Assembly (NCBI RefSeq): GCF_900110145.1
Contig: NZ_FOCP01000001.1
Coordinates: 124,001-188,000 of the forward strand
Reading direction: 5' to 3'
Source of the DNA: Nitrosomonas marina
GTDB taxonomy: Bacteria; Pseudomonadota; Gammaproteobacteria; Burkholderiales; Nitrosomonadaceae
Length of the DNA: 64,000 bases
Of the stretch, positions 1-10,651 are shown piece after piece. The notes under the pieces were generated by a model. It had not been told where the DNA came from and searched no databases. It saw only the letters and a list, made by a program, of their open reading frames with translations. Position 1 is the first letter of the stretch. Each line of letters starts with the position of its first letter. The position numbers were made by a program, and so were the translations under genes.

Positions 1-180
1 GTATTACTTCTACTAGGCGGTGATAGTTCATCTCGTCGATACGAAACTGCCAGTCTGCTTTCTCAAGGCCTGCCGAATAATCGGATAGGAATTCTGCATG
101 GACAGCAGCATAGCGCGATGAGAACAGCGCCCGATTTGTTTGCTCATGAAATTATGAAATTTTTAAAGGAACAGCCATAG
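1..180 (+). CDS. C-terminal fragment of an alpha/beta-hydrolase-like protein (cut by window edge)
   Basis: Frame 1 is open from the first base to a TAG at 178-180, giving 59 residues with no start in the window. The end contains G-I-L-H-G-Q-Q-H-S-A-M and then a helix ending F-L-K-E, which resembles the last strand, catalytic-His loop and final helix of alpha/beta hydrolases (pattern G..H.......A......FL). It converges on the minus-strand transporter gene, with only 21 bp between the stops. The substrate cannot be inferred, and the family call rests on a short tail only. Confidence 0.5.
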   Translation, partial: VLLLLGGDSSSRRYETASLLSQGLPNNRIGILHGQQHSAMRTAPDLFAHEIMKFLKEQP

Positions 181-201: not shown

Positions 202-1422
202 CTATGTCGTCTTCTCTGTCAACCGGTCTGCGTGTTGCCGTCGGCTGAATGCCAATGCCAGCGCCAGAATACAAGCGCAAACAAATACACCTGACAACAA
301 TTTCCAGCCAAGCAGAAAACCGCTTGAATAATCAACCAGTAAAGCGTAAAGCGGCGGGCCCAGCGCAAAACCGCCAAAAAACGCAACGGAAATAAAACTG
401 GAAGCAGCCGTTACCGGGCCAAAAGCTGAATCCCGGATCACCATACTCATTGCTATCGCATTTGTACCGACTGCGCTGAGTCCTACACACGCGGCCCCAA
501 GCCACAGCAATTCATGACTGTTGATATCAGCGTACATAGTACACACGATGGCGCCGGCAGCTATTACTGCGAGCGCGCATAGCAACCAGGACTCATCTCT
601 AAGTTTTGCGCCCACCGGGGTCAGCACGATTCGTGACAGCATTCCCATAACGCCAAATACAGCAATCAGGCTGTCCGCCTTAAACAGTGTCATGCCTTGT
701 TGTATTGCAAATGTCGGCAGAAAAGTGACATAGGCTGATAGTGATATTCCAATGCAGAACTGAATACACATCAGCCAAAGGAGCAATGGATTCGGGAAAG
801 TATATTCAAAACTCTTCTTCACGCCGAATTGTACTTTCGGCGTAACAAAGAGTGTTGATAATAAAAAAATAACCGCTACCGGGACTACTGCTCCAAAAGC
901 TATGCGCCAGCCATACAGCAGGGCTATTCCCGGCAGCAATAAACCCGCAAATAGCGCCGCCAGTTGTACACCTGATTGTTTGATACCTACTATCTTTGCC
1001 CTTTTCTTTTGAGTAATTTGTTGTGCAATCAGTAAATTTGTAACCGGATTGGCCAGAGCTTGTGCAATTCCGCAAATCGCTACAGCAAATACCAGCCCGG
1101 TAAAATTCTGCGCAATGGCAATAAGCATAAACGCTACCGCGATCGTAAAGAAAATCACCAACAGCATGTTGCGTGCGCCAAAATATTCAACTATGACCCC
1201 TGACCATAGCGACAAAATAGCTGCAAGACCGAATGAACTCATTACCAGATAACCTAACATGGTGCTATCAAAGGTCAGGTCCTGACTCAGTAACGGTCCC
1301 AGCGTACTGATTGCATAAAGCACCAGCATGGGCAAAGCCATGGCAAAAATCAGAACGACAACGAACAGGTACCCTGTCAGGGTTGAATTTTGAATTTGCA
1401 AAATATTTTTTTCTTCAATCAT
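202..1422 (-). CDS. MFS transporter, last gene of the thiocarboxylate-type cluster
   Basis: This 406-residue protein is hydrophobic throughout, with a pattern fitting 12 transmembrane helices. The loop after helix 2 (around residues 80-86, V-E-Y-F-G-A-R) matches the family's G-x-x-x-D-R-x-G-R-R position in a degenerate form. Major facilitator transporters use the proton gradient to move small molecules across the inner membrane. The gene lies about 120 bp downstream of the acyl-CoA dehydrogenase-like gene on the same strand, so it may be co-transcribed with the sulfur-transfer genes. An exporter or importer of the cluster's product or its metal complex is the natural guess. Substrate is not readable from sequence. 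Start is ATG at 1422. Confidence 0.8.
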   Translation of the reverse strand: MIEEKNILQIQNSTLTGYLFVVVLIFAMALPMLVLYAISTLGPLLSQDLTFDSTMLGYLVMSSFGLAAILSLWSGVIVEYFGARNMLLVIFFTIAVAFMLIAIAQNFTGLVFAVAICGIAQALANPVTNLLIAQQITQKKRAKIVGIKQSGVQLAALFAGLLLPGIALLYGWRIAFGAVVPVAVIFLLSTLFVTPKVQFGVKKSFEYTFPNPLLLWLMCIQFCIGISLSAYVTFLPTFAIQQGMTLFKADSLIAVFGVMGMLSRIVLTPVGAKLRDESWLLCALAVIAAGAIVCTMYADINSHELLWLGAACVGLSAVGTNAIAMSMVIRDSAFGPVTAASSFISVAFFGGFALGPPLYALLVDYSSGFLLGWKLLSGVFVCACILALALAFSRRQHADRLTEKTT

Positions 1423-1540
1423 TTTGTTTCTGGGTCAAATAATTGATACAAACACTGTTATCCAGGCATTGCATCAATCATGTTCTTTAGGCAACCAAAA
1501 GGTCATGATTCAGTATATAAGTATGAGAAACGATACGCGG

Positions 1541-2743
1541 TTAATTGAAGTGATATGCACTTTGTTGCTGATAAAAATCAATCAACTGACGTCCCACCGA
1601 ACTGATCAGTGATTCATCTGTACCGTCAAGAATCCGAGTGGTCCGCGCAATGCGCATAATGTTTGAAAGCGGTGTCAGCTCACTGACACCTTCCGCCCCA
1701 AAAACCTGCACAGCGGAATCAGATGCAATGCAAAGTGCCTGGGATGCCGCCATTTTGGCGGTATTGATTTCGATATTACTGGAACACTGTGTATCTACAC
1801 CCCGGGCTGCTACTCTAATCATCTCCCGAGCGCTTGCAATTGCGTGATAAGCCTTTGCCATGTGCTGACGAACGAGCTGTTTTTCCTGAAGCCTTGCGGT
1901 CAAACCGCGCCGCGAATGAATTCTGGCACCCATCATATCCAGACATCTTTGTGCCAGGCCTACCCAATGCATGGAGCGTAGCAGCCTGCCTACCCCCAGT
2001 CGTTGATTCATCATGTTAATACCGTCACCGCAAATGCCCAGCAAATTCGATTCTGGCACTTTCACCTCGTTGAACGATATTTCGCTCTGCTTTAACGTAC
2101 TTTCCATGACAGTTATCTGACGTTCTATCCGAAAGCCCTTGGATTCCACAGGAACGATGATCATTGAAAGAGTTTTTCTAATATCAACCTCGTCATCAGT
2201 TGTGCGCACCAAAACAGTAGCAAATGTTGCATCGCTGGCATTCGAAACAAACCATTTTCTGCCGTTTATGTACCAGTTGCCGCCTGATAAACGGGCTTTT
2301 GCATTGATCAACCCTGGAATCGAACCGCTGTGATCGGGCTCGGTCATTGCATAACAAGGCAGTGCATTTCCAGTGGCCATTGGACGCAAAAATTTTGTGT
2401 GAATTGTTTTATTACCAAATCTTTGCAGCATTCGTGCGTCTAAAGCAGTATGACTGCCAAAAATTTCATGGGAAAACACAGTACGCCCCTCTTGCTCCGC
2501 TACTATCAGATAACTTTCCAGCGAATCTATTTTCCCACCGTACTCAAGGGGATAAAATAATCCCCACAATCCCGCTGAACGCGCCTCATTAGTGAGTTTG
2601 GTAAGTAATTCAGATGAATGACGCCCTTTGCTCGACAACCGCTGCTCATTCGGAATAATCATGTCATCCACAAAATTTCTGACCTCATTTGAAAGTGATT
2701 TGGCCAATGTGGCGGGTTCTTTCTTTTCTATTTCACTAAGCAC
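1541..2743 (-). CDS. acyl-CoA dehydrogenase family flavoprotein
   Basis: The 400-residue length and domain order (N-terminal helices, central beta domain with C-Y-A-M-T-E-P around residue 130, C-terminal helical bundle) are those of acyl-CoA dehydrogenases. The usual catalytic base motif Y-E-G-T reads L-D-G-T near residue 373. Asp at this place also occurs in other branches of the superfamily, so the gene need not be dead. The proposed start is GTG at 2743, with GGGGA about nine bases upstream. It is 26 bp downstream of the AMP-ligase gene. Within this cluster it could oxidise (aromatise) a CoA- or AMP-activated ring precursor, which is an inference from context. Confidence 0.85.
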   Translation of the reverse strand: MLSEIEKKEPATLAKSLSNEVRNFVDDMIIPNEQRLSSKGRHSSELLTKLTNEARSAGLWGLFYPLEYGGKIDSLESYLIVAEQEGRTVFSHEIFGSHTALDARMLQRFGNKTIHTKFLRPMATGNALPCYAMTEPDHSGSIPGLINAKARLSGGNWYINGRKWFVSNASDATFATVLVRTTDDEVDIRKTLSMIIVPVESKGFRIERQITVMESTLKQSEISFNEVKVPESNLLGICGDGINMMNQRLGVGRLLRSMHWVGLAQRCLDMMGARIHSRRGLTARLQEKQLVRQHMAKAYHAIASAREMIRVAARGVDTQCSSNIEINTAKMAASQALCIASDSAVQVFGAEGVSELTPLSNIMRIARTTRILDGTDESLISSVGRQLIDFYQQQSAYHFN

Positions 2744-2769
2744 GTTTACAGTCCCCGAATAAATGTGAT

Positions 2770-4404
2770 TTAGTTAATCATGGAAAATACTGCTTCGTCA
2801 GACAATTGTTTCTTGTCGACTTTCCCTGCAGGATTGAGCGGTAACTGACGGAAATATCGAAGATATTCTGGAAGCTTGTTGGTTTCCAGTCCTTTTTCCA
2901 GCAGGTATTTGGTAAATTGCGATAGTGATGGGCGGGCAGCGCCATCTTGCGATACCACGCAAAGACAGATTCTGTGCCCTAAGTCCGGGTCAGCAACAGG
3001 AACGCAAACAGCACTGACGACTGCCGGGTGAGATATGGCAATATTCTCGATCTGCGCAGGACTGATGTTGACACCGCCCCGGATGATGATTTCCTTTTTG
3101 CGGCCCGACAGCACCAGATAACCATCATTGTCTATATATCCCAGGTCTCCGGTGTATACCCACCCATCATCATCCCTGTACAATGCATCCAGCTCAGGTG
3201 AGTTAACATACTGCATTGGGCTGATTGGGCCTCTGGCTGCAATTTCACCTATTTCACCTTGGGATAGTTCCTGTTTCTGGTCATCAACAATTTTGATGGC
3301 ACAAATCCCGGGATTTGGTCGACCTGCTTTATGTAATATTGCATCCAGATCGTCATCAAGTGTCGTATGGCAGTTCACGCCATCAGCAGATCCATATAGA
3401 CTGATAAAACCGCACCGGAACGCTTCGGTACAACGGCGGATTGATACTTCATCAATTTTTGCGCCGCCACTGATAATAGCCATTAAGCTGGATGTATCCG
3501 CTGCTGATAATTCAGGGTCCGCAGCGATCCTCTGAAACATCGTTGGCACGCCGAAAATATAATTCGGCCTAAGGTGTGCAATTGCATTAATTGCCGCAGT
3601 TACTTCAAACTGGCGCATTAATAGTACGGTGCCACCTAGCCAGGATAAAATACCAAATGTGGCAGTTGACCCAAAAGCAGTTCCCAACGGCATCAGGTAC
3701 AGGCCCCGAAATGTTTCATTCGCTGGATGAATACGCTGCAAAAAACGGCCCCTTCCACCAATGATTGCATTATGGGAATACGCTACCCACTTGGGGTCTG
3801 ATTCAGTACCTGACGATACAAGAAAACGAACGGGAGAATCGGGGCAGACAATTGGGAATTGATCACTTTCAAGAGGCTCTGAGTTGAAAAAGTCATCCAG
3901 TGCGTGCCAGTTTTCCGTTGCTGCACCATTGACAACGAGTATGCGCAGTGACAGCAATGTCGGACGTATTGATTCAATGAGTTCGCAAAGATCAACACCC
4001 GCATGTTCCGGTTCTACAATAATCACGCGCGCATCACACTTCCTGAGAAGAGATTGAACATCAAGCATTCCGCGACCGGGTGGAAAAGGCGCCACAATGG
4101 CCCCTAGCGACGCCGCAGCCAGATCTATAGCGCAACTCCGCCAGTTATTATGAAGCTGATAGGCAACTACATCTCCGGTCACAACGCCATGCTCTTTGAA
4201 TGCAGCAGCAAGCCGCTGCACTTTGTCCAGCAACTGAACATACGTAATGGTCTCATGCAAAGTCACAACTGCCGGCTTACCGGGAGTTTGCAATGCACGA
4301 TCCACAAACAGCTCATAGACTGATTTATTTGGATAAATACCGCTTTTTATCCATTGTTGACGAACCTCAGTAGGTATCAGATCAATAATTCCTGCATGAT
4401 TCAT
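2770..4404 (-). CDS. AMP-forming acyl/aryl ligase (ANL superfamily)
   Basis: The 544-residue protein has the full set of adenylation motifs. These include the phosphate loop S-S-G-T-E-S-D-P-K at about 197-205, the Y-T-G-D-L-G motif and hinge S-G-R-K-K-E in the last third, and the C-terminal catalytic Lys in P-A-G-K-V-D near residue 529. Such enzymes activate a carboxylate as the acyl-adenylate, usually then passing it to CoA, a carrier or another nucleophile. The start overlaps the CoA-transferase stop by 4 bp, so the two are translationally coupled. In thiocarboxylate siderophore pathways this class activates the carboxyl group that later receives sulfur; that role here is inferred. Confidence 0.88.
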   Translation of the reverse strand: MNHAGIIDLIPTEVRQQWIKSGIYPNKSVYELFVDRALQTPGKPAVVTLHETITYVQLLDKVQRLAAAFKEHGVVTGDVVAYQLHNNWRSCAIDLAAASLGAIVAPFPPGRGMLDVQSLLRKCDARVIIVEPEHAGVDLCELIESIRPTLLSLRILVVNGAATENWHALDDFFNSEPLESDQFPIVCPDSPVRFLVSSGTESDPKWVAYSHNAIIGGRGRFLQRIHPANETFRGLYLMPLGTAFGSTATFGILSWLGGTVLLMRQFEVTAAINAIAHLRPNYIFGVPTMFQRIAADPELSAADTSSLMAIISGGAKIDEVSIRRCTEAFRCGFISLYGSADGVNCHTTLDDDLDAILHKAGRPNPGICAIKIVDDQKQELSQGEIGEIAARGPISPMQYVNSPELDALYRDDDGWVYTGDLGYIDNDGYLVLSGRKKEIIIRGGVNISPAQIENIAISHPAVVSAVCVPVADPDLGHRICLCVVSQDGAARPSLSQFTKYLLEKGLETNKLPEYLRYFRQLPLNPAGKVDKKQLSDEAVFSMIN

Positions 4405-6293
4405 TTAAAACTCCAGGGAGACATCACTTTGGTATAACAATCCGGGCTCAATTGCTGCTGCAGGTGGGCCTGATTTCGTATTGTTGCCAGATCTTCAATA
4501 ACCTGTGCGACAGGTACACCTGCGCGCTCAAGGATCAGAAGCCATTCTTCGGCCGTCTTGGTGAGTAGCAAAAGTTGCAAAAACTGATGAAAATCGATTT
4601 CATTCAGGTCATTCGCTATCTCCAATACATTACGCAGCCGGCTTACTGTGTTAAGGTCAGGACACTCAATTGCGAGTTTTCCTTGCTTTGTATCAAAAAC
4701 ACCATTGATTATGCTTTTTGATTTTATGCGGCTATTCAGCATGTTTTTATCTGGGAAATCATCTATACATAACAGTGTTGCTGCGCTTAACAGCGATGAA
4801 GTCACTTTTACACTGGCATTATCCAGATGCCGCTTGAGTAATGCCGCGGTAATCCCTTGAGCGGCAATAACCCCTCCCAAAACATCAAGGACTGTAAAAA
4901 GAGAACCGCCTCGAGTACCGGAAGCTTGAGAGATTTTTCTGGCAACTCCAGAGTAGGCTTGCGTCATGAAATCAGTCCCTGGCAATGTATTTGTTGCTGA
5001 TTCAGCGCTTCCATTTGTAGACCAGCCCGCTGCATAGGCATAAATGAGCGCGGGATTCAAGTCAACAAAATCACTGTAATCCAGACCGAGCTGCGCCGCC
5101 TTATCAGGCGCCCAATTGTGTAGAAAAACATCTGCAGATTGAACCAGTTCCTTGATTTCTGCGCGCCCTGCTGCTGACTTTATATTTATTTCCCTGATTG
5201 TTTTAAGTCGATTGAGCGCATCGAAACGGGCAGAGCAGCCATCGGCCATGGGTGGCATCCCACGTAGCGGGTCTCCTCCCGGCGGTTCAATCCGAATGAC
5301 GTCAGCACCTAGAAGCGTCAGTAAGTGACCGGCAAGCGGGCCCTGAATCCGTCGACAGGATTCAATCACCGTTAGACCGCTTAACGGAAGCTGATTTTCA
5401 GCTTTCTTTATATCCGTTCTGGCTCTGACATTAGGGTTGAACTCAAATGACCATGGTCCTTGCAGCCAGTCGTGCATAAAATGCTCATCCTGTTGTCTTT
5501 CTTCAACAGAACGTAACTGGCAGATGGACATTCCGGTGCGCGCGCACACTTCTGAAATGTGCTGAAAAGTATAATTAGAAAGCGCATCGACCAATTCAAC
5601 GGGTAGTGGAGAGATCGCCCTTGCATAGCGCAACAAAAATGCACTCCATCCTTTGCCTGACAGGGCCGAATTAATGCCAAACTGCGCCCAGAATTTTTGC
5701 CAGGGCTCGACATCAAGAGTTTCGAGTTCAAAACAAACGCCGTCCGACGACATGAAGGGAGGCGCTGTTTGACGAGAAGCTTTTTCAAACATAACAGAAT
5801 CTGGCATTTCAGCCGCGGTTGCATCTGCTAAATATTGCGATACGCTCAACAGTGCAGCGGATGAGACAGAAAGATTGCTGCCTGACACAGGCATTCCGCG
5901 CAATCGACCCAGTGCTGCTGCAAAACAACCCTGTAGCGCAAGCGCCCCCGTCAATGTAGACACATATTGCAATCCAAGCGGACGCGGTTCACCACTTACT
6001 CTTCCATGTACCGACATAATTCCACAAGCAGCCTGAATAATGTTCTCGGTAATGCAAGTCGATTTCGATGCATCACTCCATCTTGCTATATCACAGCTCA
6101 CTAACGAGGTTCGTGATGTCTCAAATTTAAATGACAACGACAAATCGTTCGAATACTCGTCAGTTGAAATGACGTTTAAACCCAGCATGCTCGCCTGATA
6201 GCGAAGAGATGCTGCAATTGACGCAAAATCATTTGCCACATTATTAAATGGGCCCGCAAGAGTGCAACCGGTTAACGGTCGATTCATTTCCAT
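4401..6293 (-). CDS. double-length class III CoA-transferase (CaiB/BaiF family)
   Basis: The 630-residue protein is longer than the usual ~400 residues. Residues ~305-620 are a normal CaiB/BaiF domain, starting L-S-G-L-T-V-I-E and containing the R-I-E-P-P-G-G-D-P motif. The catalytic Asp lies in P-G-T-D-F-M-T-Q-A at D441. Residues ~1-250 look like a second, partial copy (T-E-N-I-I-Q-A-A-C-G-I-M around 85-100) without an obvious catalytic Asp, so it may be structural. The family moves CoA between carboxylates through glutamyl/aspartyl-CoA intermediates. It is preceded closely by the sulfur-carrier gene and overlaps the ligase. No strong ribosome binding site is seen at ATG 6293; ATG 6287 is an alternative. 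Confidence 0.85.
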   Translation of the reverse strand: MEMNRPLTGCTLAGPFNNVANDFASIAASLRYQASMLGLNVISTDEYSNDLSLSFKFETSRTSLVSCDIARWSDASKSTCITENIIQAACGIMSVHGRVSGEPRPLGLQYVSTLTGALALQGCFAAALGRLRGMPVSGSNLSVSSAALLSVSQYLADATAAEMPDSVMFEKASRQTAPPFMSSDGVCFELETLDVEPWQKFWAQFGINSALSGKGWSAFLLRYARAISPLPVELVDALSNYTFQHISEVCARTGMSICQLRSVEERQQDEHFMHDWLQGPWSFEFNPNVRARTDIKKAENQLPLSGLTVIESCRRIQGPLAGHLLTLLGADVIRIEPPGGDPLRGMPPMADGCSARFDALNRLKTIREINIKSAAGRAEIKELVQSADVFLHNWAPDKAAQLGLDYSDFVDLNPALIYAYAAGWSTNGSAESATNTLPGTDFMTQAYSGVARKISQASGTRGGSLFTVLDVLGGVIAAQGITAALLKRHLDNASVKVTSSLLSAATLLCIDDFPDKNMLNSRIKSKSIINGVFDTKQGKLAIECPDLNTVSRLRNVLEIANDLNEIDFHQFLQLLLLTKTAEEWLLILERAGVPVAQVIEDLATIRNQAHLQQQLSPDCYTKVMSPWSFK

Positions 6294-6322
6294 TTTTTTA
6301 GCGAGGTGAAATTATGATCAAC

Positions 6323-6595
6323 TTATCCTCCGGCTACCGCAGGCAATATTGTCAGGGCATCTCCATCTTTTAAATTTGTTTGAAGGCCGTCACAAAAACG
6401 AATATCGCTGTCATTCACATAAATGTTAATGAAACGATGCGGCTGATCTTCTGCAATCAACTTTTCCTTAATACCCGGATACTGCTGATCCATTTGATTG
6501 ATCGCTTCCAGTACATTTACACCAACCACTTCAACCAGTTTTTGATTATTTGTTATAGACCTCAGGATGGTAGGAATTGAAACTTTGACAGACAT
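6323..6595 (-). CDS. ubiquitin-like sulfur carrier protein (MoaD/ThiS/CysO type)
   Basis: This 90-residue protein has beta-grasp spacing and ends exactly in A-V-A-G-G, the di-glycine tail that is adenylated and converted to a thiocarboxylate. The internal N-I-Y-V-N-D-S-D-I-R segment and D-G-D-A-L-T-I-L-P before the tail match CysO/MoaD relatives. AAGGAG lies at good spacing before ATG 6595. It sits between the JAMM protease and the CoA-transferase genes, and the activating MoeZ-type enzyme is two genes upstream, so the complete activation set is local. No residues follow the Gly-Gly, so no proteolytic trimming is needed before activation. It is the likely sulfur donor for the cluster's product. 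Confidence 0.92.
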   Translation of the reverse strand: MSVKVSIPTILRSITNNQKLVEVVGVNVLEAINQMDQQYPGIKEKLIAEDQPHRFINIYVNDSDIRFCDGLQTNLKDGDALTILPAVAGG

Positions 6596-6715
6596 TTGTT
6601 CTCCTTCATAAAATATTACGAGTTGCTGTTAACCAAATACAGCAAACGATTAATTGATACGACTTCCCGGCATAAAGCTAGCGAAAGATTCACAAAGTGA
6701 GGAAGCAAAAACCGA

Positions 6716-7159
6716 TCAGGCCACTTTTAGCTGCTTCAGATCCGGTTCATAGGTTTTTACAATTTTGATCCTCTCTTCTATGACTATGTCATCAACAATC
6801 CGAAAACTACGAACACTCTCTCCTGATAATAATGCTGTTGAAATAATCACATAGTGTGCTCCTGGTTCCGCTGCATACTCGATATCCGTGCGGCTGGGAT
6901 ATGCCTGCGTACTGGTGTGTGAATGATAGATAACAATCGGTTCCTCACCACGCAATTCCATTTCTTTCCAGACTTGCAACTGTTGTTGTGGATCAAATTG
7001 AAAAAAATCCTCGGAATGCGCCGCATTTTCCATGGGTATTAAACGTTGTGGCAGATTAGAACCAAGCGCGCCGGCTATGACGCCACATGACTCGATAGGA
7101 TGATCTTTATTTGCCTGAGCAAGCATTGCTTCAACAAGTTTCGTATGGATGGTCAACAT
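6716..7159 (-). CDS. JAMM/MPN+ zinc metalloprotease (Mec/QbsD-like)
   Basis: The 147-residue protein has all JAMM ligands: Glu23 in E-S-C-G, then H79-x-H81, then S89 and D92 (H-S-H-T-S-T-Q-A-Y-P-S-R-T-D). Proteins of this size in bacteria cleave adducts from the C-terminus of small sulfur carriers, either removing cysteine made on CysO or trimming residues that mask the Gly-Gly end. AGGAG lies eight bases before ATG 7159. It lies between the MoeZ-type gene and the carrier gene, so the carrier is its probable substrate. No cysM-type synthase is present, so a role in ordinary cysteine synthesis is less likely than one in thiocarboxylate transfer. Confidence 0.9.
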   Translation of the reverse strand: MLTIHTKLVEAMLAQANKDHPIESCGVIAGALGSNLPQRLIPMENAAHSEDFFQFDPQQQLQVWKEMELRGEEPIVIYHSHTSTQAYPSRTDIEYAAEPGAHYVIISTALLSGESVRSFRIVDDIVIEERIKIVKTYEPDLKQLKVA

Positions 7160-7203
7160 CTACAGGTCTCCTGAAGATAAATTTATTGATACAAATCGAA
7201 CCG

Positions 7204-8376
7204 TTAGTAACTTGGCAGTGACTGATCTACATCATTGATCCAGGACAGAATCCCGCCATCAAGGCTTTTAGCATTTGTAAATCCATGCTTTTGCATTTCG
7301 ATCACTACATCTCTGGATCGCGCGCCCATTTTGCAATGTACAACGATAAAATCTCTTTTATTCATTCCGGACAGGACATCTTCCGTCATCATTTCACTCT
7401 TAGGAATGTGAGTGGCCCCGTCAATTCGCACAATATTCCACTCCTCGATACCGCGAACATCTATTAGCCTGATCTTCTCGCCTTTATCACGCATCTCCTT
7501 TAACTCCCGGGCACTGATTATCGGAATTTCTTTCTGGTGTTCTTCTGACTGTTGTCTGCCACCACAAAATTCTTGATAATCGATCAATTGTGTAATAGAT
7601 GTACGAACGGGTGCTTTCCTGATTGGTATAAATCTATAGCTCATATCCAATGCATCATAGACCGCCAGGCGGCCCAACAATGACTGACCGATTCCGGTGA
7701 TTAACTTGATAGCTTCTGTAGCCATCATTGACCCAATCGACGCGCACAAAATACCAAGCACGCCGCCTTCGGCACATGAAGGCGCCATTTCAGGTGGAGG
7801 CGGCTCTGGGTATAAATCGCGGTAATTTAGCCCTGCATCACCCGGCGCATTTTCCCAAAAAACTGAAACCTGACCTTCAAAGCGAAAAATAGATCCCCAC
7901 ACATATGGCTTTTTCGACAGCACGCAAACATCATTCACCAGATAACGCGTAGCAAAATTATCTGTACCATCCACGATCAGGTCATAATCAGAAATAATCC
8001 CGCGGGCGTTAGCCGCTTCGAGGCGTTCTTCATGCAGTTCCACCTGAACATGTGGATTAATTTCTTTAATTGTGTCCCGGGCACTCACCGATTTGCGTTT
8101 ACCGATATTGGATTGTTTATGGATAATCTGCCTCTGCAAGTTGGATTCATCCACAACATCAAAATCAACAATACCGAGTTTTCCAACACCCGCTGCGGCA
8201 AGGTAAAGCAGCACTGGCGACCCCAGCCCACCCGCACCAATAACCAATACCCTGCTGTTTTTTAATCGTTTCTGCCCTTCCAACCCAACTTCCGGGATAA
8301 GCAAATGTCGGCTATAGCGTAAAACCTCACTTTTACTCAATTCAGCTCCAGGTGCTACTAAAGGCGGTAGTTGCAT
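7204..8376 (-). CDS. MoeZ-type E1-like adenylyltransferase with C-terminal rhodanese domain
   Basis: The 390-residue protein has an N-terminal ThiF/MoeB domain with the nucleotide loop G-A-G-G-L-G-S-P near residue 50 and D-x-D/Q-R-Q motifs. Its C-terminal rhodanese domain has the active loop H-C-K-M-G-A-R-S (Cys348). It would adenylate the Gly-Gly tail of the sulfur carrier and deliver persulfide sulfur from the rhodanese cysteine. ATG 8376 is preferred over an upstream TTG at 8391 because GGAG lies six bases before it. It is the first gene of the minus-strand cluster and lies downstream of a putative Fur site. A housekeeping molybdopterin or thiamine role cannot be excluded from sequence alone. 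Confidence 0.9.
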   Translation of the reverse strand: MQLPPLVAPGAELSKSEVLRYSRHLLIPEVGLEGQKRLKNSRVLVIGAGGLGSPVLLYLAAAGVGKLGIVDFDVVDESNLQRQIIHKQSNIGKRKSVSARDTIKEINPHVQVELHEERLEAANARGIISDYDLIVDGTDNFATRYLVNDVCVLSKKPYVWGSIFRFEGQVSVFWENAPGDAGLNYRDLYPEPPPPEMAPSCAEGGVLGILCASIGSMMATEAIKLITGIGQSLLGRLAVYDALDMSYRFIPIRKAPVRTSITQLIDYQEFCGGRQQSEEHQKEIPIISARELKEMRDKGEKIRLIDVRGIEEWNIVRIDGATHIPKSEMMTEDVLSGMNKRDFIVVHCKMGARSRDVVIEMQKHGFTNAKSLDGGILSWINDVDQSLPSY

Positions 8377-8477
8377 AATTTCTCCAATCAATATCTGGTT
8401 TGTCGTTCAATTTTCATTAACAAATCGTTGAAAAACCGTCTGCTGTGCGCAAATCAAATTCTATTTATTAATAAAAA

Positions 8478-8492
8478 TAACAATCATTATGA
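8478..8492 (-). promoter_or_regulatory. putative Fur box upstream of the sulfur-transfer cluster
   Basis: On the minus strand the site reads TCATAATGATTGTTA. It matches the 7-1-7 Fur consensus TGATAAT-N-ATTATCA at 11 of 14 defined positions. It lies about 100 bp upstream of the ATG at 8376 in an AT-rich stretch suited to a promoter. Iron control would fit a siderophore pathway. No transcription start is known. Confidence 0.55.
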
Positions 8493-8752
8493 TTTCTATT
8501 AAAAATATTAGTACTTAATAACACTTTAATTAACAATTTTTATATCCTGAACAACGTTCAAATTCTCTTTAAAGAAAGCACATGCACAAATCCAGTTTTC
8601 CTCGCATATCAAATTTTCATACGCGGATCCGCGAATTTGTTTCTTAGTGATATTGCGTCATCAGCCATTACTCATCACAACTTCAGAAAAGTCAATTTGT
8701 ACTTCATGCCGAGGACTGCGGTAAATTTAAAGCAGATTATAAAATTTTGGAA

Positions 8753-8784
8753 TGTGACAAATTGTCGCGCGACAATTTGTCGCA
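8753..8784. repeat. 32-bp near-perfect palindrome (possible operator)
   Basis: Two 11-base arms, GACAAATTGTC (8756-8766) and GACAATTTGTC (8771-8781), are exact reverse complements around a self-complementary GCGC. Pairing continues for three more bases on each side after one T/G mismatch. No T-tract follows, so a terminator is unlikely. Such a long twofold-symmetric site suits a dimeric regulator, but no regulator gene is next to it. Confidence 0.6.
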
Positions 8785-9349
8785 TGCGTGATTGGAATTG
8801 CAAGGACTTCATAATTGCTACAGGCAGATCTGCGGCAAGGCAGACATTGTATAATTACAACTGCTGTGGCAACAGCACATTCGATGGCTGAAAAACACTC
8901 TGCCGAGAAAAACACGCAAACAAACGCTGTCTTAATAGGGACTGTATTTTAAACTGTGCAACTGCCTGGTTAACATATCCCATCATGCGATCCGCTATTT
9001 TGATCATAAAAAGTTCAAAACTGATGCTCAATTTTTTTCTGCATCGCCCGGCTCTAAATGCTACCTGGATTGTTTAGGAGATAATTCTCAAGGCAAACTA
9101 ATTGGCTGAAAAAATTTGAATTTTCTAGATTACTTTTCGCATATCTTCTTGATATCCGAAGAGTGTAGAAATATTGTCCCGATGTGCGCTCTACGACCGG
9201 TTGAACTGCAGTTACTAATGCCTGTACAAAGATTTGACTTCCGCTTCTGCTTTCAGATTCATCTCAAAATGATCACGAATCACGCTTCAAGTATCGTGGC
9301 GCCATAATAATTACTCGCCTAACGATATCATTTAATATAGTGGATTAAT

Positions 9350-9425
9350 TGGCGCCCTGAGCACGAATCGAACGTGCGACCTACCCCTTAGGAGGGGGTT
9401 GCTCTATCCACTGAGCTACCAGGGC
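9350..9425 (-). tRNA. tRNA-Arg(CCU)
   Basis: The reverse complement folds as a complete 76-nt tRNA. The acceptor stem is GCCCTGG paired with TCAGGGC. The D arm has GCTC/GAGC, and the anticodon stem ACCCC/GGGGT encloses a CTCCTAA loop with anticodon CCT. The T arm is GCACG-TTCGATT-CGTGC, and the CCA end is encoded. The 3' end points towards the thiocarboxylate-type cluster. tRNA-Arg(CCU) genes are frequent integration sites for genomic islands. Confidence 0.97.
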
Positions 9426-9694
9426 GTAGTTTCAAGACCGTTATTTTACGCTACTCTGTCATATTATCATAAGCCGCTTATACACTCACAATCCCGTTAC
9501 CACCTAGCGACCAAACCCTAACCGACTGTTTATAAATATACTTTATTAAAAATAATTACAACACATTATGTATATCTATCACTACATTATTTTTGGTTAG
9601 CGACCATGGACTGCAACCACAACTTGAGATCATGCGCGTTACTCAGTATAGTTGCCGGATTTATTTTGAATTTCATAGAAAAAGAAACACATAA

Positions 9695-10651
<957 letters not shown>

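Follow-up and report, generated by a model that had tools for sequence, protein, structure and literature searches.

Gene organization of the locus

A seven-gene operon on the minus strand lies at the left end of a 64,000-nucleotide stretch of the Nitrosomonas marina genome (G000:C20:124001-188000; hereafter the window). Its genes encode a sulfur-transfer system together with coenzyme A (CoA) enzymes and a transporter, and together they very probably produce and transport a small sulfur acid. The ORF reading of the window showed seven intact open reading frames (ORFs), in the order and at the positions first described, and the main Pfam match of each protein is above the curated cut-off. From the promoter side, the order is E1-rhodanese, JAMM, sulfur carrier, two-domain CoA-transferase, AMP ligase, acyl-CoA dehydrogenase (ACAD), and MFS transporter:

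7204..8376, minus strand: E1-like adenylyltransferase-rhodanese fusion (PdtF/QbsC type); Pfam ThiF 271 bits, Rhodanese 58 bits
6716..7159, minus strand: JAMM/JAB metalloprotease (PdtG/QbsD type); Prok-JAB 102 bits
6323..6595, minus strand: ThiS/MoaD-like sulfur carrier (PdtH/QbsE type) with exposed C-terminal GlyGly; ThiS 57 bits
4401..6293, minus strand: two-domain type III CoA-transferase (PdtI/QbsK/PtmU4 type); CoA_transf_3 221 bits
2770..4404, minus strand: AMP-forming acid ligase (PdtJ/QbsL/PtmA3 type); AMP-binding 189 bits
1541..2743, minus strand: acyl-CoA dehydrogenase, ACAD11-like; Pfam ACAD domains
202..1422, minus strand: MFS transporter; MFS_1 119 bits

The E1-rhodanese fusion contains the rhodanese loop HCKMGAR, and C151, C201, C211, and C348 are among its residues invariant in 38 loci. 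The HSHxxxxxYPSxxD-type motif of the JAMM protease is intact in all 38 transferase-bearing loci, and in two of the eight transferase-less loci. The window's carrier terminates in PAVAGG, with the GlyGly end already free. Among 43 carriers, 27 end in GG, 11 have residues past GG, one is fused to the transferase, and four, from transferase-less loci, have no GG. Carrier-transferase fusions were observed in L051 (737 residues) and in P0043. The CoA-transferase (630 amino acids) matches CoA_transf_3 in two stretches, the best of which covers residues 304-613; the N-terminal half also contains invariant residues (E83, H96, D184, E189, and E191 in 38 loci). This enzyme has at least 1312 relatives at E<=0.001 among 7995 candidates scored. 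The ligase and CoA-transferase genes overlap by 4 bp. The closest solved structures of the ligase are aryl-acid-AMP ligases, and 172 of its residues are invariant across 37 loci; the likeness to aryl-acid ligases hints that the substrate may be an aromatic acid. The closest solved structure of the ACAD is ACAD11 (E=1.8e-49). Its D373 is invariant in 39/39 full-length copies, and sits at what we take to be the position of the catalytic base. The short ligase of L053 and the short ACAD of L067 are omitted from these residue counts.

Conservation, distribution, and loss

Gene order was compared among 34 Nitrosomonadaceae loci (L004, L005, and L026-L057; L058 repeats L005 and was not counted). The seven-gene arrangement claimed in the original prediction, an earlier note made from this DNA alone, is confirmed. 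The order E1-JAMM-carrier-transferase-ligase is kept in 34/34 loci. The ACAD and MFS genes come next, in that order, in 33/34; the exception is L042, whose contig stops near the end of the ligase gene. The same gene order across the family loci excludes chance. In one locus (L053/L074; G051, L053:11346-19277), the ligase gene is interrupted by an insert of about 8 kb. The insert contains an ORF resembling, by eye, a DNA cytosine methyltransferase, and about 16 ligase codons are apparently present at both ends.

The best named relative of the window's set is in Nitrosomonas aestuarii Nm36 (L005), with a CoA-transferase 77% identical, and the predicted ammonia-oxidising host is confirmed by this match. 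L049 also carries the set, with five core proteins 56-75% identical. The CoA-transferase has a strong match in 35 of 125 family genomes, and a weak one in eight more (E 1e-16 to 1e-20). With the limit set at E 1e-60, the genomes that contain it, apart from the window's own, are one of 398 drawn from the phylum and three outside the family among 399 drawn from the order; 369 genomes drawn from the class gave none. The plasmid collection had no record covering 80% of the protein.

Outside the family, the window's gene order recurs in 10 Pseudomonas loci, where MFS again comes after ACAD (10/10) and a GH88-type gene is eighth; three Burkholderiales loci have the same order as far as read. One Pseudomonas locus of other make-up (L149) has a transferase 40% and a ligase 37% identical to those of the window. 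It contains a receptor and a methyltransferase, and no ACAD, MFS, or GH88 match was found in its 20 kb; we presume that it is pdt/qbs-like. By these comparisons the window's set is of an ACAD-MFS(-GH88) type, apart from the L149 type. In the transferase tree, which was midpoint-rooted and carries no support values, the Nitrosomonadaceae form one clade with Methylobacter beside it, and L149 is the most divergent row. The Nitrosospira-type loci and most Nitrosomonas loci are on separate branches, L047 and L048 excepted. Among the matches listed, the closest named transferases from outside the family belong to Methylobacter and other Methylococcales. The tree is in keeping with long residence and repeated loss of the cassette.

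Remnants of the cassette were also observed. In eight family genomes the JAMM gene persists although the transferase is missing, and JAMM is present in 34/35 of the genomes with a strong transferase match. In the transferase-less loci, the JAMM motif serine is lost in 6/8; five of them still have a carrier, and in four of these its GlyGly is gone. L073 contains broken fragments of the porin and GH88-type genes described below. The cassette genes thus tend to stand and fall together, and the co-decay of JAMM and carrier with loss of the transferase supports a single function and a dispensable product. These results bear on an alternative in which the genes form a sulfur relay serving primary metabolism (cysteine, tRNA thiolation, or molybdopterin), their neighbours being there by chance. 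Elsewhere, E1-rhodanese, JAMM, and carrier genes are indeed found on their own or together with cysteine synthase (PMC1779556, rows 4b and 4c). However, a set confined to 35 of 125 genomes, lost together and with the JAMM motif broken in six of eight leftovers, is dispensable, and its synteny is strict across classes. A primary relay is therefore highly improbable.

Genes to the left of the window

The original prediction had the set ending at position 202, which proved too short. The conserved block runs on beyond the MFS gene, outside the window, as follows:

G000:C20:123395-124180, plus strand: convergent alpha/beta hydrolase gene (esterase-like), 3' end in the window at 1..180; ORFs, Pfam, conserved order
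G000:C20:121697-123262, minus strand: Alginate_exp porin; ORFs, Pfam, conserved order
G000:C20:120550-121737, minus strand: GH88-type (unsaturated glucuronyl hydrolase fold) protein, 395 residues; fold comparison, conserved order
G000:C20:119109-120434 (L003:11109-12434), minus strand: amidohydrolase, signal-bearing; ORFs, Pfam, conserved order

A look to the left of position 1 had been proposed for a receptor or a methyltransferase; neither was recognised among the ORFs of the locus and its left flank, most of which were scanned with Pfam, and these four genes were found instead. All 35 family genomes in which the CoA-transferase matches strongly also have the GH88-type gene, and 10/11 Pseudomonas loci of the ACAD-MFS(-GH88) type have it in eighth place. 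No porin was found in L029 or L030, and the contig of L042 is too short to show it. The alpha/beta hydrolase is missing from several Nitrosospira-type loci.

A single-sequence Pfam scan gave no family match for the GH88-type protein. Comparison with structures of unsaturated glucuronyl hydrolase (UGL; 1vd5 and 2fv0) gave the GH88 fold, at 19% identity. One UGL aspartate is kept (D178), whereas a serine occupies the position of UGL D88. Both acids are presumably catalytic in UGL, whose mutants D88N and D175N/D115N are on record by name. The protein might perform a hydration or dehydration step on a ring. A search of an open-access library showed no paper linking GH88 or unsaturated glucuronyl hydrolase with thiocarboxylates.

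That a porin, a GH88 fold, an amidohydrolase, a CoA ligase, and an ACAD are neighbours might also suggest an operon for breaking down an acid of uronate or aromatic type, in which the CoA enzymes degrade the acid, and the porin, MFS, and GH88-type protein serve its import. However, the GH88-type protein of this locus has a serine at one of the two UGL acid positions, no beta-oxidation partner was recognised in the locus, and the E1/JAMM/carrier set would be without a role. The hosts are, moreover, chemolithoautotrophs. We consider a catabolic operon very unlikely.

The amidohydrolase and its relatives have a His-rich stretch (9-15 His per 40 residues in every copy read but a short one). For a 41%-identical paralogue in L065-L067 the count is four.

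TonB receptors near the operon

One TonB receptor family adjoins the operon, next to the E1 gene, in 16/34 family loci, which are all 15 Nitrosospira-type loci and L026. Relatives of this receptor lie after the MFS gene of L063 and, oriented divergently to the operon, in L150 (48% identity), one a Burkholderiales and the other a Pseudomonas locus. The original prediction took a dedicated receptor to be absent from the window's set; a search of the window's genome with one relative's receptor gave no close match (see below). By these counts, receptor absence is best read as a trait of the lineage and not as a feature of the cassette.

Other kinds of TonB receptors are near the operon in L062 and L057, and the L062 receptor passes a siderophore-receptor cut-off (382 vs 223.5 bits). 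For the adjoining receptor family, a copper-type assignment was rejected: it fits no copper model, the best models being siderophore ones, far below cut-off. It gave three weak PDB matches. A short ORF of L063 has a stretch that we take to be OprC-like.

Comparison with known systems

The pdt cluster of Pseudomonas, for pyridine-2,6-dithiocarboxylate (PDTC), contains a methyltransferase and a TonB receptor. Its pdtE and pdtK presumably encode an MFS transporter and the receptor, both kinds of gene being met in window-type loci as well. At the window's locus no methyltransferase was recognised among the locus and left-flank ORFs, most of them Pfam-scanned, as had been predicted; no TonB receptor was recognised among the same ORFs, nor a close relative of the adjoining family in the genome receptor search. 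In strain F113 the order is pdtCKPELMFGHIJON (PMC7415375). Compared by gene order, the F-G-H-I-J core is alike and the rest differs: E and L lie upstream of F in pdt, whereas ACAD and MFS follow the ligase here, and no GH88 gene is named in that published order. The predicted near-pdt gene order thus holds for the core only. PDTC or a pdt-type compound as the product is unlikely: besides the order outside the core and the lack of a recognised methyltransferase, L149 is distant, and the substrate would be pure inference. Three match lists, read to the best 120 names each, contained no proven pdt protein.

The core itself has been reported before. Iyer et al. (2006) listed PdtF-PdtJ in N. europaea, Nitrosospira multiformis, Ralstonia solanacearum, Hahella, and three Pseudomonas (PMC1779556, Table 1 row 4a), grouped them with the PDTC and quinolobactin operons, and suggested that such compounds are widely made. 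The likeness consists of E1-rhodanese, JAB, ThiS/MoaD-like carrier, CaiB-like transferase, and AMP ligase in one operon. The ACAD, MFS, GH88-type protein, porin, amidohydrolase, operator, and receptor are not named in row 4a (PMC1779556). New beyond the 2006 core is the larger set with the GH88-type gene, the receptor in some relatives, and a common operator. A search of an open-access library for papers on thiocarboxyl compounds in Nitrosomonas gave Iyer et al. as its single result. The description "not yet described" may therefore hold for the product, but not for the genes.

The qbs cluster of P. fluorescens (thioquinolobactin) is alike in carrier, JAMM, E1, CoA-transferase, and ligase, although its product has a xanthurenate skeleton (PMC1779556). 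A search of the window's genome for one gene of the kynurenine pathway, kynureninase (TIGR01814), gave no match. Dong et al. (2018) showed thiocarboxylic acids to be formed by a related ligase and a two-domain CoA-transferase (PtmA3/PtmU4) in concert with a sulfur-carrier system, and found cassettes of this kind to be widespread (PMC6006322). The likeness is a ligase beside a two-domain type III CoA-transferase, with a sulfur-carrier system; in thioplatensimycin biosynthesis, however, the carrier machinery is encoded outside the cluster and the scaffold is another (PMC6006322). Overall, the original prediction of a thiocarboxylate-type set in an ammonia oxidiser was supported. It was right in kind, and wrong in extent, in the details of the likeness to pdt, and in being unreported.

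A conserved operator upstream of the operon

The operon is preceded by a gap of 1.3 kb (window 8377-9697; 37% G+C, no recognised gene), which contains a palindrome about 375 bp upstream of the operon:

8753..8784, strand not assigned: palindromic operator, 32 bp; two 17-bp boxes, consensus TGYGRCAANWTGYCRCA

The two boxes overlap by two bases, and each has one mismatch at the common centre. In 34/34 family loci, the 600 bp before the first operon gene contain a box with at most one mismatch, vs 0/1700 shuffles. Across ten genomes, counts of the exact box are 56 for the forward strand and 64 for the reverse (mostly the same places), vs 1 (2) for the reversed control. Genes behind these boxes were annotated mostly by Pfam only or by eye, the boxes of G093 being left out.

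The box precedes a kinase gene (regB) in 6/10 genomes (L107, L119, L120, L129, L132, and L137), and in L119 and L120 a response-regulator gene follows the kinase gene. In the window's own genome, the regB kinase is 74% identical, and a box with one mismatch lies 314 bp upstream (0/500 shuffles). The kinase contains GGSTNPF, and the quinone motif of RegB is GGXXNPF (PMC8191878). Since the box precedes regB and the kinase bears a motif of this type, the operator is likely a RegA-type box. Other box-bearing genes in the window's genome include a multicopper-oxidase pair (L102), two TonB receptors (L103 and L106), and a PEP-CTERM protein (L104). The box-bearing genes gave no decision between copper and zinc as the metal.

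Low-iron control, which the original prediction implied, found no support across the loci, one match in the window's own promoter apart (see below). Scored with the E. coli Fur consensus, 55 upstream stretches of 250 bp behaved like shuffles. Three had shuffle p<=0.05 (L004, which is the window, L045, and L062), about the number due to chance.

Proposed function and regulation

Gene content, gene order, conserved motifs, the operator, and co-decay form the observed basis for reading this locus as a biosynthetic cassette whose product, a small thiocarboxylic acid, serves as a metallophore; to this reading we assign a probability of about 65%. In the proposed pathway, the rhodanese domain would supply persulfide sulfur, and the E1 domain would adenylate the GlyGly end of the carrier to yield a carrier thiocarboxylate. 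The JAMM protease may free the GlyGly end where it is capped or fused; this is plausible in the loci whose carrier is fused or has residues after GlyGly (11/43 loci). The ligase would convert a carboxylic acid, perhaps aromatic, to a CoA thioester, and the two-domain CoA-transferase would exchange CoA for the carrier sulfur and release R-COSH. The ACAD and GH88-type protein might build or oxidise the ring, and the MFS might transport the product. The TonB receptor, kept in Nitrosospira-type relatives and not found in the window's genome, would retrieve the metal complex. A RegBA-type redox system, acting at the 8753-8784 palindrome, would probably control transcription.

Several points weigh against this metallophore reading. 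The window's genome, searched with one relative's receptor, contains no close receptor relative: matches are 28-37% identical over short stretches, the best being 28% over 196 residues. This genome-wide search covered the window's genome, and not the other 17 receptor-less family loci. The adjoining receptor family itself scores far below siderophore-receptor cut-offs. The window's carrier is uncapped, and the job of JAMM is not obvious in this strain. The thiocarboxylate product is predicted from the genes. With regard to regulation, the protein binding the palindrome is putative, its assignment to RegA coming from sequence, and PrrA had no strong consensus by chromatin immunoprecipitation sequencing (ChIP-seq). 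The window's own promoter contains a 14/19 Fur-like match (shuffle p 0.045; not common to L005), which leaves room for iron control of this operon. Finally, N. europaea, listed with the operon in 2006, is reported to be unable to make siderophores by the chrome azurol S (CAS) assay (PMC3050691), and a 2022 review lists it as having neither siderophore nor chalkophore synthesis (PMC9693385).

Some of these points would suit a thiocarboxylic acid made as an antibiotic or signal, and not for metal uptake. The CAS-negative N. europaea, the lack of a close receptor in the window's genome, and the chance level of Fur-like sites are consistent with such a role, and a thioacid cassette also serves the antibiotic thioplatensimycin (PMC6006322). 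Five Pseudomonas loci (L060, L144, L146, L147, and L148) are also unlike a plain siderophore set. Before the cassette they contain an approximately 845-aa protein ending in a class III aminotransferase, an approximately 804-aa protein without Pfam match, and an MFS gene; most of the five have a methyltransferase-like ORF farther out. However, one TonB receptor family is tied to the operon in three separate groups, which speaks against this alternative. We consider an antibiotic or signal unlikely.

Copper as the metal is a guess, made because the nearest named outside transferases are from Methylococcales and the box lies before multicopper-oxidase and TonB-receptor genes. A broader scenario, which is speculative and rather improbable, would combine these features. 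The betaproteobacterial ammonia oxidisers and a few methanotrophs might share an undescribed thiocarboxylate metallophore built with a GH88-type ring enzyme, switched by quinone-sensing RegBA and not by Fur. It would supply the energy chain, at whose head is ammonia monooxygenase, with copper or with both copper and iron, as a non-peptide counterpart of methanobactin, and the lineages that lost it would keep decayed remnants. Few thiocarboxylic natural products are known. For the acquisition of iron and copper by ammonia oxidisers, whose energy chain is metal-heavy, the cassette points to particular genes, to hosts that can be cultured, and to a chemical group to seek.

Other genes adjoining the operator box

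A second amidohydrolase paralogue has its own palindromic box (L105; G000:C37:202000-209000); a MerC-family gene is oriented divergently to it, and a cation-efflux gene is close by. Recurrent secreted proteins (MAHIGY..GRDFGTF) adjoin the same box in L108, L125, L127, L135, and L067; the one tested, from L125, is a PEP-CTERM protein. Another secreted protein, of the AHTRLE..HGCG type, lies by the box in L111, L113, L139, and L100, with no Pfam match in the two tested. In three genomes its gene is divergent from that of a large membrane protein.

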